In this document: positions 4,742-33,921 of the stretch, in pieces | Layout: the number at the start of each line of letters is the position of its first letter | Numbering within the stretch: position 1 is the stretch's first letter | From: Candidatus Nomurabacteria bacterium GW2011_GWE2_34_25 | Lineage (GTDB): Bacteria > Patescibacteriota > Minisyncoccia > Phycocordibacterales > UBA9973 | Assembly (NCBI GenBank): GCA_000990325.1 | Contig: LBPS01000003.1 | Span: forward strand, 1 to 51,079 | Reading direction: 5' to 3' | Length of the DNA stretch: 51,079 nt | The notes under the pieces: generated by a model | What the model was told of the DNA's origin: nothing | The model's input: only the letters and a program-made list of their open reading frames with translations | Databases searched by the model: none | Translations under genes and position numbers: made by a program

Positions 4742-5321
4742 TACAATCTTTTTCAGCCTTTATAATTTAACTCATCGTTCAGCAATTTTTGATTGGATTG
4801 TTTTATTTTTTGCCAATCCTTTTATTTATATTTTAATTCTCATCGCTATAATTTTTCTAGTTTTTTATACCAATGGAGTTTTTGATTCAAAGAATTTTTC
4901 TCAGCAATATAATTTAGGTCCTCGATTAAAAGTTATATTCTTTATTGGGTCTTCAGCTGTTTTTGCTTGGATTATTACGTCCATTCTGAAAGCTATCATT
5001 GTCTATCCTCGTCCATTTATTGTTTTTGAAAATATTAAGCCTTTATTTCTCCATGGTGGTATGGATTCCTTTCCCTCTGGTCATGCGACATTTACAGCAG
5101 CCTTGGCTATGTCTTTATTTTTGATAAATAAAAAGGTTGGAATTTATTTTGCAATTGGAGCTTTATTTGTTGGTTCATCTAGAATTGTTGCGGGAGTTCA
5201 TTTTCCAATTGATATTCTCTTTGGTTATATTATTGGAATTTTAGTTTCTTTCATTTTCAGCCTTATTTTTAAGGCCAAATTCATCGATCGTTTGCTTGCT
5301 ATTTTCACCAAAACGCTATAA
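4734..5321 (+). CDS. PAP2 superfamily phosphatase
   Basis: KAIIVYPRP...SFPSGHATFTAA...SRIVAGVHFPIDILFG; likely start is the internal ATG near the folD stop (MNNTIFF...), ORF track start 4701. Confidence 0.88.
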   Translation: MNNTIFFSLYNLTHRSAIFDWIVLFFANPFIYILILIAIIFLVFYTNGVFDSKNFSQQYNLGPRLKVIFFIGSSAVFAWIITSILKAIIVYPRPFIVFENIKPLFLHGGMDSFPSGHATFTAALAMSLFLINKKVGIYFAIGALFVGSSRIVAGVHFPIDILFGYIIGILVSFIFSLIFKAKFIDRLLAIFTKTL

Positions 5322-5333
5322 AATAGGCCTATT

Positions 5334-6722
5334 ATGTTGAAAACAAGAATTACAGCATTACTTATCTTATTATTAGGCGCGGGTATTGGTTTTTTTGTTT
5401 ATAAGTCAGAGATCGCTAAAATGGCAGTTGCCAAAGATGCTACTCCTAAGGGATTTTTAGCTACACATCCATTCAAGCTTGGGCTTGATCTATCGGGTGG
5501 TACACACTTGGTGTACAGAGCAGACGTATCAGAGATTGATGCGACAGAGATAGGAGACTCCATGAGTTCTCTTCGTGATGTCATCGAAAGACGTATCAAT
5601 ATTTTCGGAGTTTCAGAACCTTCTATACAAGTACAAGATGGTGGATTCTCTAACCAAGGGGAGCAACGTCTTATCGTTGACCTTCCAGGAGTTACAGATG
5701 TCTCAAGCGCTATTGCAATGATAGGTGAGACACCAATGCTTGATTTTCGTACAGAGAATCCTATAAAAGATGCTCCAGTAGAAGCTACTGTAGGCAAAGA
5801 CGGTAATGTCGTGTTTGATCCTTATGCTTCTCAATACATAAAAACTGAACTTACTGGTCGTTATCTCGATAAGGCAATTCTCGAATTTGATCAAACTACT
5901 GGTGAAGCAATAGTGGCATTACAGTTTGATGAAGAGGGGTCAGCATTATTTGAAAAAATTACAAAAGAAAATGTTGGTAAAAGTGTTGCCATCTTTTTAG
6001 ATGGGGCACCTATTTCTATCCCTACTGTAAACGAAGCTATCTCTGGGGGTAAGGCTCAGATATCTGGAAATTTCAAAGCAACAGAAGCTAAGCTCCTAGT
6101 TGGACGTTTGAATTCTGGAGCTCTTCCTGTCGCTATTGAACTTATCTCTACACAAACTATTGGTCCATCACTTGGTACCGCTGCTACAGCTGCAGGGGTA
6201 AAGGCTGCACTTATCGGATTCCTCGCTATTGCACTCTTCTTGATCATTTGGTACAGACTTCCAGGACTTATAGCAACAGTTGCTCTCTCTATCTACGTGG
6301 TTGCAATGCTCGCTATTTTCAAGCTTGTCCCTGTGACTTTGACCGCTGCAGGTATTGCAGGATTCATCATCTCGCTTGGTATTGCGGTAGATGCAAACGT
6401 ACTCATATTTGAACGTATTAAAGAAGAGTTAAGAGGTGGAAGCACTGTAGGGGATTCTATGCATCATGGTTTTAAGCGTGCATGGCTCTCAGTTCGGGAT
6501 TCTAATATTTCAAGTATCATCACTGCCATTATCCTTTACTGGTTTGGTACGACTCTTATAAAAGGGTTTGCCCTAGTATTCTTGATTGGTGTATTGGTCT
6601 CTTTGATTTCTGCAATTTCTATTACAAGAATATTCCTTTATACTCTCAATATCAAAAAAACAAACGGATTCACCAACTTTTTATTCGGGTCGGGGCTTAG
6701 TAGCGCTAAATCTCAAAAATAA
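5334..6722 (+). CDS. secD: protein translocase subunit SecD
   Basis: LGLDLSGGTHLVYRAD, RRINIFGVSEPSIQ, AGIAGFIISLGIAVDANVLIFERIKEE. Confidence 0.95.
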   Translation: MLKTRITALLILLLGAGIGFFVYKSEIAKMAVAKDATPKGFLATHPFKLGLDLSGGTHLVYRADVSEIDATEIGDSMSSLRDVIERRINIFGVSEPSIQVQDGGFSNQGEQRLIVDLPGVTDVSSAIAMIGETPMLDFRTENPIKDAPVEATVGKDGNVVFDPYASQYIKTELTGRYLDKAILEFDQTTGEAIVALQFDEEGSALFEKITKENVGKSVAIFLDGAPISIPTVNEAISGGKAQISGNFKATEAKLLVGRLNSGALPVAIELISTQTIGPSLGTAATAAGVKAALIGFLAIALFLIIWYRLPGLIATVALSIYVVAMLAIFKLVPVTLTAAGIAGFIISLGIAVDANVLIFERIKEELRGGSTVGDSMHHGFKRAWLSVRDSNISSIITAIILYWFGTTLIKGFALVFLIGVLVSLISAISITRIFLYTLNIKKTNGFTNFLFGSGLSSAKSQK

Positions 6723-28835: not shown

Positions 28836-30956
28836 ATGGCCAAAAAAGAAGAAAAAAAGGTTAAAAAAGAGGGAAGTTATGGAGCAGATCAGATATCAGT
28901 TCTAGAGGGGCTAGAGCCTGTCAGACGACGTCCTGGTATGTACATAGGGTCTACAGGCATAGACGGTCTTCATCATTTGATTTGGGAAATATTTGATAAC
29001 TCCCGCGATGAAGCAATGGGAGGGTTTTGTGATCGTATTGAAGTTACGATGCTTCCCGATAATTCTGTCCGAGTTGTAGACAACGGACGTGGAATTCCTG
29101 TCGACATACATGCAAAGACGAAAGTTTCCGCACTCGAAACTGTTATGACGACTCTTCATGCTGGAGGCAAATTTGGAGGAGATGATAGTGGGTACAAAGT
29201 TTCAGGAGGTTTACACGGTGTTGGTGCTTCTGTTGTAAATGCACTTTCTATTTATACTAAAGCTGAAGTTCATAAAGATGGAGGTAAATATGTTCAAGAA
29301 TATTCTCAGGGTAAGAAAAAGGCAGCAGTGAAAAAGGTTGGCAGTAGCAAAGAACACGGAACGATTATTTCTTTTAGGCCAGATGAAGAAATTTTCAAGC
29401 AAGTTACATTCGATTGGGACACCGTCGTAGCTCACTTGCGTCAGCAGGCTTACTTGGTGAAAGGTTTACGTATAGATATTATTGATGCACGGCAGTGGGA
29501 TCCTATCACCGGAGGCAAGGGTAAGAGTAGCGACTATGATAATGCTTTTTGGTTTAGAGAGTTAGAGATTGAAGTCCCTTCCACCACTTTTTATTTTGAA
29601 GGAGGGCTTGTCTCACTTGTAAAATTTTATAATAAAGCCGAGAAGCCAATTCACTCAAGCGTATTTTATGTAGACAAAGAAGTTGATGGAGTTGGAGTAG
29701 AAGTTGCTTTGCAATATGTAGATAATTTTAGTTCGGATATTATTCCTTTTGCAAACAATATTCATAATCCTGAAGGAGGTACACATATTACTGGATTTAA
29801 GACTGCTCTAACTCGTGTTATCAATACTTATGGTAAGAAAAATAATCTAATCAAAGAAGCTGATGGTGGTTTTACGGGGGACGACGTATTAGAAGGTCTA
29901 ACTGCTGTTGTGTCTGTGAAGCTTCGTGAAATTCAATTTGAAGGTCAGACTAAAGCCAAGCTTGGTTCGACAGAGGCTCAAGGTGCCGTAGCGACAGCAT
30001 TTGGGGAATCATTTTCTGCCTTCCTTGAAGAGAATCCAGATGAGGCAAAATCCATGATCAGCAAGTCCTTACTTGCTTTGCGTGCCCGTAAGGCCGCCAA
30101 AGCCGCTAAAGATTCTATATTAAGAAAAGGTGCATTGGAAGGTATGACTTTGCCAGGTAAGCTTGCCGACTGTCAGGTGAAAGATGCTGAAAGTGGAGAA
30201 CTCTTTATTGTGGAGGGAGATTCTGCTGGGGGTACAGCTAAAATGGGACGCGACAGAAAGACTCAAGCCATTCTTCCTCTTCGAGGTAAAATTCTCAATG
30301 TTGAGCGTGCTCGCTTGGATAGAATGCTAGGAAGTGAACAGATTAAGAATCTAGTTATTGCTATGGGTACATCTATCGGGGACACTTTTGATTTAGAAAA
30401 AATGCGTTACCATAAGATAATTCTTGCAACCGATGCCGACGTAGACGGAGCCCATATTCGTACCCTTATCCTCACTCTCATGTATCGTTATTTCCGTCCA
30501 GTACTTGATGCAGGATATGTTTATATTGCACAGCCACCACTATTTAAAATAAAGATTGGTAAAGAGATTTCCTATGCTTATACTGACGAAGAACGCGATA
30601 AGATACTCGGCAAAGATGCTCCTTCTCTAGAAGATTTATTAACTGAATCTGCAAATGAAGAGGGAAGTGAAGAAGTTGAAGAAGAGGAATCTGAAGAAAT
30701 TTCTAAAAACCAAACAGTAAAAACCAAACAGCAGTCTAATAAGATTCACATCCAGAGATATAAAGGTCTCGGAGAAATGAATTCCGATGAACTCTGGGAG
30801 ACAACCATGGACCCTAAAACTCGTATCTTAAAGCAAGTTTCTGTTGTAGATGCTGAAGATGCCAATAAAGTCTTCGATATGCTCATGGGCTCCGAAGTTC
30901 CTCCACGCAAATCCTTCATCACCTCTCACGCCAAAATGGCAAATCTAGATATATAG
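28836..30956 (+). CDS. gyrB: DNA gyrase subunit B
   Basis: EGLEPVRRRPGMYIGSTGIDGLHHLIWEIFDNSRDEAM, LPGKLADCQVKDAESGELFIVEGDSAGGTAKMGRDRKTQAILPLRGKILNVE, IQRYKGLGEMNSDELWETTMDP. Confidence 0.97.
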   Translation: MAKKEEKKVKKEGSYGADQISVLEGLEPVRRRPGMYIGSTGIDGLHHLIWEIFDNSRDEAMGGFCDRIEVTMLPDNSVRVVDNGRGIPVDIHAKTKVSALETVMTTLHAGGKFGGDDSGYKVSGGLHGVGASVVNALSIYTKAEVHKDGGKYVQEYSQGKKKAAVKKVGSSKEHGTIISFRPDEEIFKQVTFDWDTVVAHLRQQAYLVKGLRIDIIDARQWDPITGGKGKSSDYDNAFWFRELEIEVPSTTFYFEGGLVSLVKFYNKAEKPIHSSVFYVDKEVDGVGVEVALQYVDNFSSDIIPFANNIHNPEGGTHITGFKTALTRVINTYGKKNNLIKEADGGFTGDDVLEGLTAVVSVKLREIQFEGQTKAKLGSTEAQGAVATAFGESFSAFLEENPDEAKSMISKSLLALRARKAAKAAKDSILRKGALEGMTLPGKLADCQVKDAESGELFIVEGDSAGGTAKMGRDRKTQAILPLRGKILNVERARLDRMLGSEQIKNLVIAMGTSIGDTFDLEKMRYHKIILATDADVDGAHIRTLILTLMYRYFRPVLDAGYVYIAQPPLFKIKIGKEISYAYTDEERDKILGKDAPSLEDLLTESANEEGSEEVEEEESEEISKNQTVKTKQQSNKIHIQRYKGLGEMNSDELWETTMDPKTRILKQVSVVDAEDANKVFDMLMGSEVPPRKSFITSHAKMANLDI

Positions 30957-31009: not shown

Positions 31010-31441
31010 ATGATTTACCATAAAAAACCAGAAAATTTTTCTCCTCGATTTGAGGTGGTAAGTTGTTTTCTCGAAAATGCTGGGGAATTTTTGCTTTTGC
31101 ATAGATCTGCTCATAAACCACAAGGTAATACTTGGGGAGTTCCAGCCGGCAAAAAAGAAGTGGATGAGACTCCTAAAGATGCAATAATCAGAGAAACAAA
31201 AGAAGAGACGAGGCATAAAATTAATCCTGTAGAACTAAATTATTTTAAAGAATTATATGTTAGATATGATAATTATGATTTTATCTATCATATTTTTTCT
31301 TTAAAATTGAGAGAAAGGCCAGAAGTTATTTTAGAAGAAAATGGTCATAAAGATTTTAGATGGGTAACACCAGAAAACTCACTTCAAATGAATCTGATCC
31401 AGGATTTAGATGAATGTGTGAGGTTGTTTTATGAAATTTGA
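31010..31441 (+). CDS. NUDIX hydrolase
   Basis: GVPAGKKEVDETPKDAIIRETKEETRHKI NUDIX box. Confidence 0.88.
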   Translation: MIYHKKPENFSPRFEVVSCFLENAGEFLLLHRSAHKPQGNTWGVPAGKKEVDETPKDAIIRETKEETRHKINPVELNYFKELYVRYDNYDFIYHIFSLKLRERPEVILEENGHKDFRWVTPENSLQMNLIQDLDECVRLFYEI

Positions 31442-31472
31442 TAAAATACACAACAGGTTTGGCTTGTGTGTA

Positions 31473-31510
31473 TTTTACATTTAACGAACGGCCGTTTCTT
31501 AATTGTAAAA
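31473..31510. repeat. 38-bp imperfect palindrome, left copy of an inverted pair
   Basis: TTTTACATTTAACGAACGGCCGTTTCTTAATTGTAAAA (16/19 arm identity); reverse complement is 37/38 identical to 32086-32123. Confidence 0.95.
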
Positions 31511-31531
31511 TGATAATATTAGAGTTATAAT
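31503..31531 (+). promoter_or_regulatory. promoter of the wHTH/Cas2-like gene overlapping the palindrome
   Basis: TTGTAA (31503-31508) - 17 nt - TATAAT (31526-31531); ATG 6 nt downstream. Confidence 0.55.
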
Positions 31532-31537
31532 ATATTT

Positions 31538-32083
31538 ATGAAATATAAGGGGTACAGAGTAGGCTCAATTGAAAGAGAAATATTAAAAGTAATTCTTAGT
31601 GTTAAAGATAGAGAATTACCCAATAAATATTCTGAGTCTTTTTCTGATATTTTTAAAACAGCTCGTCAAAAATATCAATATTCTGAGACAGTAAATAGAA
31701 TGGAGAAAAAAGGCCTAATTCAATTTGTTAATAAATATGGTGAATTAAAAATCACCATAAGCCCAAAAGGACACAGAATAATAAAAAGTCTTATGTTGTC
31801 TGATTATAAACAGATTAAAAGGCCTGTAAAATGGGACGGTAAATGGAGAATGGTTATGTTTGATATTCCCGAAGATAAGACTAAATTACGTAATATAATC
31901 AGATTTCATTTAAAAAAGATTGGTTTTCTTCAGGTTCAGGGGAGTGTTTGGGTGTATCCTTATCCTTGCGAAGAAATTATAACGATCATCAAAACTAATT
32001 TTAATTTTGATGATGAAATTATTTATGCAACTATTAATTCATTTGATAAAGATTTAAAATTTAAAAAATTATTTAAATTATAA
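31538..32083 (+). CDS. winged-helix + Cas2/PaaX-C-like domain protein
   Basis: N-terminal wHTH-like (RMEKKGLIQFVNKYGELKITISPKGHRII) followed by KWDGKWRMVMFDIPEDKTKLRNIIRFHLKKIGFLQVQGSVWVYPYPCEEIITIIKTNF, ferredoxin-like Cas2/PaaX signature. Confidence 0.78.
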   Translation: MKYKGYRVGSIEREILKVILSVKDRELPNKYSESFSDIFKTARQKYQYSETVNRMEKKGLIQFVNKYGELKITISPKGHRIIKSLMLSDYKQIKRPVKWDGKWRMVMFDIPEDKTKLRNIIRFHLKKIGFLQVQGSVWVYPYPCEEIITIIKTNFNFDDEIIYATINSFDKDLKFKKLFKL

Positions 32084-32085
32084 TA

Positions 32086-32123
32086 TTTTACAATTAAGAA
32101 ACGGCCGTTCGTTAATTGTAAAA
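32086..32123. repeat. 38-bp imperfect palindrome, right copy of the inverted pair
   Basis: TTTTACAATTAAGAAACGGCCGTTCGTTAATTGTAAAA (17/19 arm identity). Confidence 0.95.
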
Positions 32124-32133
32124 TATAATGTAT

Positions 32134-32167
32134 TAAAAATCCAGAAGCAAGGTCTCTGGATTTTTTA
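32134..32167. terminator. stem-loop, probable thrS terminator
   Basis: AAAAATCCAGA-AGCAAGGTC-TCTGGATTTTTT. Confidence 0.65.
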
Positions 32168-32175
32168 ATAGACAT

Positions 32176-33921
32176 TTAGTTTAACGTTCTCTCTTTGATT
32201 TCTTTTTGCAATCTTTCTAGGAAAGATTCTATTGTTATTCCTTCGAGTTTTTCAGTACGGCCTTCTACTGTTATAACTTTTGCATCACGCTCTTTATCAC
32301 CAATGACTATTACATAAGGAGTCTTACTCATCTTTGCATCGCGAATTCTTTTACCGAGAGATTCATTTGAATCATCTAGCTCTACTCTTATGTTGGAATC
32401 TTTGAGTGTTTTATATACACTATTAGCATACTCATGTTGATGTTCTGAAATTGGCAAAACAATCACCTGGACAGGGGAAAGCCAAAGAGGGAATGCTCCA
32501 GCGAAATGCTCTATCAAGAACCCAATAAAACGCTCGTGAGTTCCAAGGGGTGCACGGTGAATTATGTATGGAGTCTTCTTTGTTCCGTCTTTGTCTGTAT
32601 ATTCAAGGTTAAATTTTTTACCCATATATAGATCAAGCTGATTTGTTGAAGCACTGAAAGATCTACCGATTGAAGAGTATACTTGGAAATCCATTTTGGG
32701 TCCATAAAAAGCAGCACCTTCATGAGCAATTTTAAAAGGAACGCCAGATATTTCCATTGCTTCTATTGTCATTTCTTCAGCAAGTTTCCAATCTTTTTCT
32801 TCTCCATGGTATTTGTCCATCTTTTTAGGGTCACGAAGAGCTAATTCCATTTCATACTTTTCAATTCCTAATACTTTGTAGTAGTATTCGTGTAATTTAA
32901 TTACATCTATAAATTCTTGTATTGCTTGTTCAGGAGTAGTGTAGATATGTGCATCGTTCATTTGCATTCCACGAACTCTCATTAATCCAAAAAGACTTCC
33001 AGAATCTTCATACCGATGACACCACCCATATTCAGCTAGTCTTAGAGGTAAGTCTTTATAACTTTTTGGTAAAGCAGAAAAAACCTTATGATGAAAGGGG
33101 CAATTCATAGGTTTTATATAATAATTATCTCCTTCTATTGATATAGGAGCATACATACTATCTTTATACAAAGGCAAATGTCCTGAAGTATAGAATAAAC
33201 TTTCTTTTGTAATTATCGGTGTTGTGACTCTCTGATATCCCCATTTTTGCTCTGTTTCTTTTGCCCAGTTTTCTAGTTCTTCTTTAATTATATTTCCTTT
33301 TGGTAACCATATAGGTAATCCCTTTCCAATCTCTTCATCAAAAGTAAATAATTCTAATTTCTTACCTAGTTCTCTATGGTCGCGTTTTTTAGCTTCTTCC
33401 TGTAGAGTTATGTATGCATCAAGTTCTTCTTTTGTGTTAAATGCTAAACCATATATACGAGTAAGCATTTTATTCTTCTCATCACCACGCCAGTAAGCTC
33501 CAGCTATACGCTCAAGCTTCCATGAACCTTCCTTAATATTTTTCATATTGTCGATATGTCCACCACGACAAAGGTCAGAGAAATTTCCTGACTTATAGAT
33601 TGTAATTTCTTCTCCTTTTTCTACTATGCCATTTATAAGTTCTTCTTTGTATACGTTCCCGGCAAACATTTTAAGTGCTTCTTCTTTGCTTAAAACTTCT
33701 TTTTCAAAAGACGTCCATGTTTTTAAAAGTTCTTTCATTTTAGCCTCAACTTTTTCTAAGTCAGTGTCAGTAATTTTGCCCTTAATATCTACATCATAGT
33801 AGAAACCATTATCTACTGCAGGCCCTAAGGTTATCTGTGAACCTGGGTAAAGTTCCAAAATAGAGGCACCTAATAGATGGGCGAGAGAGTGACGGACATG
33901 TTCTAAATTTTTATTTTCCAT
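32176..33921 (-). CDS. thrS: threonine--tRNA ligase without TGS domain
   Basis: HVRHSLAHLLGASILELYPG, GPAVDNGFYYD, CRGGH, NCPFHHKVF, FRMDAHIY-like RVRGMQMNDAHIY, IIHRAPLGTHERFIGFLIEHFAGAFPLWLSPVQ. Confidence 0.95.
   Translation of the reverse strand: MENKNLEHVRHSLAHLLGASILELYPGSQITLGPAVDNGFYYDVDIKGKITDTDLEKVEAKMKELLKTWTSFEKEVLSKEEALKMFAGNVYKEELINGIVEKGEEITIYKSGNFSDLCRGGHIDNMKNIKEGSWKLERIAGAYWRGDEKNKMLTRIYGLAFNTKEELDAYITLQEEAKKRDHRELGKKLELFTFDEEIGKGLPIWLPKGNIIKEELENWAKETEQKWGYQRVTTPIITKESLFYTSGHLPLYKDSMYAPISIEGDNYYIKPMNCPFHHKVFSALPKSYKDLPLRLAEYGWCHRYEDSGSLFGLMRVRGMQMNDAHIYTTPEQAIQEFIDVIKLHEYYYKVLGIEKYEMELALRDPKKMDKYHGEEKDWKLAEEMTIEAMEISGVPFKIAHEGAAFYGPKMDFQVYSSIGRSFSASTNQLDLYMGKKFNLEYTDKDGTKKTPYIIHRAPLGTHERFIGFLIEHFAGAFPLWLSPVQVIVLPISEHQHEYANSVYKTLKDSNIRVELDDSNESLGKRIRDAKMSKTPYVIVIGDKERDAKVITVEGRTEKLEGITIESFLERLQKEIKERTLN

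Follow-up and report, generated by a model that had tools for sequence, protein, structure and literature searches.

The window analyzed here is a stretch of 51,079 nucleotides from Candidatus Nomurabacteria bacterium GW2011_GWE2_34_25, in which a single ORF (31538-32083, forward strand), encoding a 181 amino acid protein, lies between two 38-bp near-palindromes. The upstream palindrome (U; 31473-31510, forward strand; TTTTACATTTAACGAACGGCCGTTTCTTAATTGTAAAA) has 16 of 19 pairs complementary, harbors the core AACGGCCGTT at 31487-31496, and stops 27 bp short of the ATG. The downstream palindrome (D; 32086-32123, reverse strand; TTTTACAATTAAGAAACGGCCGTTCGTTAATTGTAAAA), delimited by its sequence, a repeat search, and the geometry of the locus, has 17 of 19 pairs complementary and begins 2 bp after the stop codon. 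The left and right 38-mers are identical at 37 of 38 positions in inverted order vs. 33 of 38 in direct order, and our re-reading of the sequence agreed exactly with the initial annotation on the positions of the ORF and both palindromes, as well as on their inverted arrangement. Strict inversion is not a rule of the family, as direct order is found in several relatives (L042, L046, L047, and L069). An ordinary terminator-like hairpin (AAAAATCCAGA..TCTGGATTTTTT; 32132-32170) lies between the element and the convergent thrS gene, and is also present in the relative G004; judging from the sequence, it is probably not part of the element. A separate observation concerns gyrB, which contains a perfect tandem duplication of the 14-mer TAAAAACCAAACAG (30704-30731).

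The encoded protein combines a winged helix-turn-helix (wHTH) with a PaaX_M/Cas2-like ferredoxin domain, as indicated by domain scores, an AlphaFold2 model, and Foldseek. The Pfam scan matched PaaX_M (PF20803; 71.8 bits vs. a gathering cut-off of 24) at residues 97-167 (31826-32038, forward strand), in agreement with the alignment, and this match was recovered in 30 of 30 family members scanned. Scores for Cas2 were sub-threshold in both Pfam (19.4 vs. 23.8 bits) and NCBIfam (24.0 vs. 24.5 bits), the PaaX equivalog model of NCBIfam (TIGR02277) scored 28.9 vs. a cut-off of 264.55 bits, and the protein lacks the C-terminal effector domain of full PaaX. No Y1 (HUH) transposase domain (PF01797) was detected by the Pfam scan, the other matches being weak and HTH-type, and no match was found in Rfam. 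The initial annotation had noted neither a CRISPR array nor cas1 in the window, and no cas1 gene was seen among the neighboring ORFs listed. The AlphaFold2 model is of moderate quality (mean pLDDT = 79); its top PDB match by Foldseek was E. coli PaaX (8a39; E = 4e-5), followed by Rv0674 (E = 4e-3), with Cas2 and VapD chains ranking lower (E ~0.04 and weaker). Residues D109, R118, and S136 are invariant among 30 diverse aligned homologues. D109 (codon 31862-31864, forward strand) ends the first strand of the Cas2-like domain and corresponds to the Cas2 beta-1 Asp; since this conserved Asp occurs in PaaX-type sequences as well, it is no proof of nuclease activity. The protein resembles Cas2/VapD-like nucleases in its ferredoxin-like domain, in the Asp ending beta-1, and in a Cas2-like Q-x-S-V-W stretch, and differs from them in scoring under the Cas2 cut-offs, in its fusion to a wHTH, and in having no cas1 among the neighboring ORFs.

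The window gene belongs to a family and is not a lone curiosity. We found four homologues in the window genome (G000), homologues in 32 of 41 genomes (the window genome and 40 relatives), with a maximum of 11 in one 0.7-Mb genome, and homologues in 90 of the 287 genomes sampled from the phylum. Each species is represented by a single genome, in many cases a fragmented one, with many homologues at contig ends and exact empty sites scarce. Named matches, obtained from a single-protein scan of genome contigs, came from Nomura-, Taylor-, Zambryski-, Kaiser-, and Staskawiczbacteria and other Patescibacteria, and then from full-length PaaX-like genes of Bacillales; in all, we read some eighty homologue loci. 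No relative was found in viral contigs, and our literature search found neither a paper combining PaaX and Parcubacteria nor a Cas2-like/palindrome system.

Matched flanking palindromes, defined as two palindromes scoring at least 7 near the start and stop and at least 27/36 identical, were found for 34 of 70 homologues vs. 2 of 650 other ORFs of the same loci (Fisher p = 3e-36), a rate that is descriptive since the rule was set after the first loci had been viewed, with controls scored identically. Both control ORFs that passed are genes adjoining a homologue. Among separately fetched loci from other Patescibacteria and Bacillales, scored with a palindrome threshold of 6, 28 of 61 passed; at this threshold, none of the eight full-length PaaX loci of Bacillales had matched palindromes.

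The palindromes fall into types with cores such as CGGCCG, CTATAG, CCATGG, CTATCG, CACCTG, and CATATG, among others. Core type changes 14 times on the protein tree (shuffled mean 27.5, minimum 24) vs. 30 changes for genome-of-origin labels, indicating that palindrome type tracks the protein clade and not the host. Pairing is retained as the sequence changes: across 22 distinct ACGCTATAGCGT palindromes, 372 of 396 cells are paired vs. a shuffled mean of 246 (maximum 266), a test that is inflated by sequence relatedness and is therefore support and not proof. The outer twelve pairs of these palindromes show up to four different Watson-Crick types, and the inner six are constant since they were the search pattern. 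Comparing U with D within single elements, we found 34 pair positions that are altered on both sides and still complementary. Symmetrization at the time of replication could be another source of such paired changes; whether they reflect constraint or symmetrization, they point to hairpin formation in the cell. At four loci (L213, L218, L219, and L175) the arms extend symmetrically 7-13 bp past the family core with locus-specific sequence, an outcome that could stem from insertion into a small palindrome, from fold-back copying, or from later symmetrization. A very long palindrome with 71-bp arms at the start of contig C35 of G023 was excluded, being a likely artefact of assembly at the contig end.

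Cognate copies of the window palindrome are also found away from the gene, both in this genome and in its relatives. Solo (gene-less) palindromes were counted genome-wide by pattern searches, the counts being lower bounds for the patterns used. The core AACGGCCGTT occurs at four sites in the 767-kb window genome, two of which are the window locus. This genome has two window-type solos, one following a murB-like gene (C8:54247) and the other an rpmA-like gene (C5:89476), where the solo adjoins a palindrome of another clade (both genes were named by eye). In G004 this type has four sites, including the murB one, and neither G017 nor G000 has a counterpart of the G004 solo at 463 kb at the equivalent position. 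For the CTCTGC type, G023 has 16 sites, roughly ten of which are solo, and a control search with the reversed pattern gave none. G022 carries the palindrome type of its own element at six places, and 23 congeners have no copy of it; G022 is rated 100% complete, and the RAYT search gave no match there. Solos of the TACGCTATAGCGTA type occur once each in four genomes in which no matching gene was found. In a cluster at L044:2600-6560 (G022:C12), we observed at least five copies of one palindrome around a wHTH-Cas2 gene, together with a small secreted-looking ORF (5294-5761) that likewise lies between two palindrome copies.

The solos inspected lie outside long ORFs except in miaA, and are mostly downstream of or between genes. 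The linker of miaA (named by eye from the translated sequence) carries an in-frame, element-type palindrome in G000, G010, and G003 (encoding, e.g., TNSAMAEFV and TNSAGAEFV), a similar palindrome at the same site in G020, and REP-like palindromes in G004, G017, and G013; none was found in the linker of G019 and G005. This hypervariable linker (L060:9650-9702 and L220:1930-1975) holds palindromes of several families across species. Rickettsia palindromic elements are palindromic repeats that lie in-frame within genes, and the miaA palindromes offer a lead toward a likeness with them; to our knowledge, no partner gene accompanies the Rickettsia elements, whereas here every palindrome type has a cognate gene.

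The locus itself is variably occupied. A gene of the window clade lies in the gyrB-thrS gap in G000, G004, G008, and G019 and elsewhere in G016, and it is positioned before the NUDIX gene in G008 and after it in G000 and G004. The gap is empty in G014, G001, G021, G002, G005, and G015, and holds NUDIX alone in G003; these data establish presence and absence at gyrB-thrS, with no close empty site for reading a junction. Relatives do not all carry the gene at one locus, and other palindrome copies exist, the opposite of what the initial annotation had named as an argument against mobility. In G017, the gap is occupied by a gene (G017:C1:62078) that we call RAYT-like from reading its sequence, its PF01797 match being sub-threshold, with TAGCCATAGG..CCTATGGCTA REP-like repeats on either side (L142, G017:C1:61900-62500). 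Between G000 and G004, identity is 42% for NUDIX, 64% for ThrS, and 93% for GyrB, and ThrS identity reaches 86% vs. G017. These uneven identities (window positions 31010-31441 and 32176-33921) point to a gyrB-thrS hotspot, with recombination or replacement.

Inheritance differs between clades. The grpE-adjacent clade comprises 22 genes (L056:6007-6528 and 21 orthologues) from nearly every congener, and 122 of 122 tested pairs are syntenic, grpE having been recognized by eye from flanking sequence. In most of these genes the upstream palindrome (AAGTATTTAGCGACCGCT type) is conserved and has no downstream match, and the grpE-linked gene looks like a vertically inherited, domesticated or ancestral regulator. 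Elsewhere in the family, 154 of 201 pairs with at least 50% identity share no neighbors, some of them being 80-86% identical; a few grpE-linked genes with an unrecognized upstream motif fall in this second set, making the contrast conservative, and short contigs around some members bias in the opposite direction, as they leave few neighbors to compare.

Upstream of the window gene, promoter-like boxes overlap the palindrome. A -35-like box (TTGTAA; 31503-31508, forward strand) lies within the right arm of U, 17 bp ahead of a -10-like box (TATAAT; 31526-31531, forward strand), both assigned by consensus match. G004 has the same layout, and many relatives have the -10 box 12-13 bp ahead of the ATG; the placement of the -35 box in the palindrome recurs in several clades, and in others the palindrome is closer to the start codon. 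PaaX represses itself by blocking RNA polymerase at its own promoter, and its reported site is TGATTC(N27)GAATCA, spanning 39 bp (PMC9493321). The promoter overlap and the PaaX precedent suggest autorepression via the U palindrome, which, by analogy with PaaX, would be the most conservative functional inference. The self-contained autoregulatory cassette raised by the initial annotation gains support from these overlapping boxes. PaaX repressors (E. coli PaaX 8a39, Rv0674 3kfw, and 3l09) share with the window protein the wHTH and central Cas2-like domain, provide its best fold match, and include an autoregulator whose 39-bp site is similar in length to the palindromes described here. Unlike PaaX, of about 300 amino acids, the window protein has 181 and is missing the C-terminal effector domain, and its gene is palindrome-flanked, multi-copy, and relocating.

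Members of the family could be autoregulated PaaX-like regulators only, with the palindromes acting as operators at the gene and its regulon, and with ordinary duplication or horizontal transfer in place of any DNA cutting. This explanation would account for the U palindrome overlapping the -35 box, for a closest structure that is an autorepressing repressor (PMC9493321), and for the upstream palindrome retained alone in the vertical grpE-linked clade. We nevertheless consider it unlikely, although deserving serious attention, since a second copy right after the stop codon is frequent, as many as 11 homologues occur within one 0.7-Mb genome, the spacer shows symmetric sequence change, and the solos, mostly downstream of or between genes and in two cases in-frame in miaA ORFs, are in poor places for operators.

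The features recorded here are better compared with those of RAYT/REP systems, for which flanking palindromes, dispersed cognates, co-evolution, and retained palindromicity have been set out as criteria (PMC2817692). As in RAYT/REPtron elements, one gene lies between two palindromes of its own, cognate solos are dispersed, palindrome and protein co-evolve, pairing survives sequence changes, and the gene is not multiplied in near-identical copies. Unlike those elements, the family has a winged helix and Cas2-like fold and no Y1/HUH domain, its palindromes are nearly perfect and present in few copies per genome compared with classical REPs, and the U copy appears to serve also as promoter/operator. 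No GTAG/CGTC head was found beside 31473-31510 or 32086-32123. As RAYT/REP features are reproduced without an HUH domain, the element seems to work like a REPtron without being a RAYT. Matched palindromes, clade-specific cores, solos, locus occupancy, relocation, pairing, and promoter overlap lead us to favor, with moderate confidence, a REPtron-like one-gene palindrome system with a short PaaX-type partner (winged helix plus Cas2 fold) that would bind the palindrome, regulate itself through it, and probably help it to spread. The RAYT/REPtron analogy drawn by the initial annotation, and its idea of a Cas2-fold protein with palindromes of its own, are well supported as architecture by the dispersed cognates, the clade-specific cores, the variable occupancy of the locus, and the relocation among relatives.

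The palindromes might instead be moved by resident RAYTs or another enzyme, the wHTH-Cas2 gene being a passenger or a controller that exploits them. RAYTs were found in 26 of the 41 genomes searched (most congeners, with 1-6 copies), and sites are shared between the two kinds of element, namely the gyrB-thrS gap in G017 and the miaA linker with its REP-like palindromes; however, G022, G009, and G034 carry element palindromes and gave no match in the RAYT search, palindrome type tracks the wHTH-Cas2 clade, and RAYT-type repeats differ in appearance, which makes this explanation improbable. That the palindromes are ordinary transcription terminators or structural hairpins flanking the gene by chance is hardly credible, for although many stand at gene 3' ends and D copies have 27 G.T vs. 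6 A.C mismatches in the gene sense, the control-ORF test (34/70 vs. 2/650) led us to reject a terminator-only reading, a separate ordinary terminator lies 3' of the window element, U copies lie over promoters, and cores are clade-specific. The preference for G.T in the gene sense, seen in D copies and not in U copies among sequences that are not independent, is a lead toward an RNA hairpin.

Under the REPtron-like reading, the protein would probably dimerize via its Cas2-like domain, and the two winged helices of the dimer would read the outer and inner boxes that are conserved in its cognate palindrome. Protein bound to the U copy would cover the -35 box and repress its own promoter in a PaaX-like manner. 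The palindrome, as a hairpin or cruciform, may be the substrate or landing unit that is copied to new sites, probably with the aid of the protein, giving rise to gene-less solos. The layout, the match between clade and palindrome, the scattered solos, the variable presence of the gene, the retained pairing, and the promoter overlap are read from the sequences, and we infer that the dimer binds, that it represses and, most of all, that the protein would cut or transfer the palindrome. That a Cas2-fold (PaaX-type) protein, in place of an HUH transposase, recognizes its own hairpin palindrome and copies it to new sites in Patescibacteria genomes, constituting a new class of palindrome-dispersing system, is a tentative proposal that we place somewhat short of probable.

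Several observations weigh against the REPtron-like reading. No near-identical element copies occur within one genome, no target duplication is demonstrable as palindrome ends vary by locus, solo numbers are low (about 2-10), the TACGCTATAGCGTA solos stand in four genomes that yielded no matching gene, and the relative order of the two copies (inverted or direct) varies among clades; the window copy, which four species share at the gyrB-thrS gap, indicates no recent movement. The low copy number and the plain-regulator alternative hold our confidence at a moderate level.

If the REPtron-like reading is true, REP-type palindromes would have arisen two or more times in association with partner proteins that are unrelated, and bacterial palindromic repeats would gain a second system in which to ask how they spread. 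PaaX/Cas2-fold proteins would act as palindrome-bound genome residents, which would explain why Patescibacteria have PaaX-/Cas2-like genes without a phenylacetate pathway or CRISPR alongside. The pre-CRISPR biology of Cas2-like proteins would become testable, and if the protein also copies the palindrome, the family would illustrate, in living cells, what a Cas2-like protein acting alone is able to do outside CRISPR.
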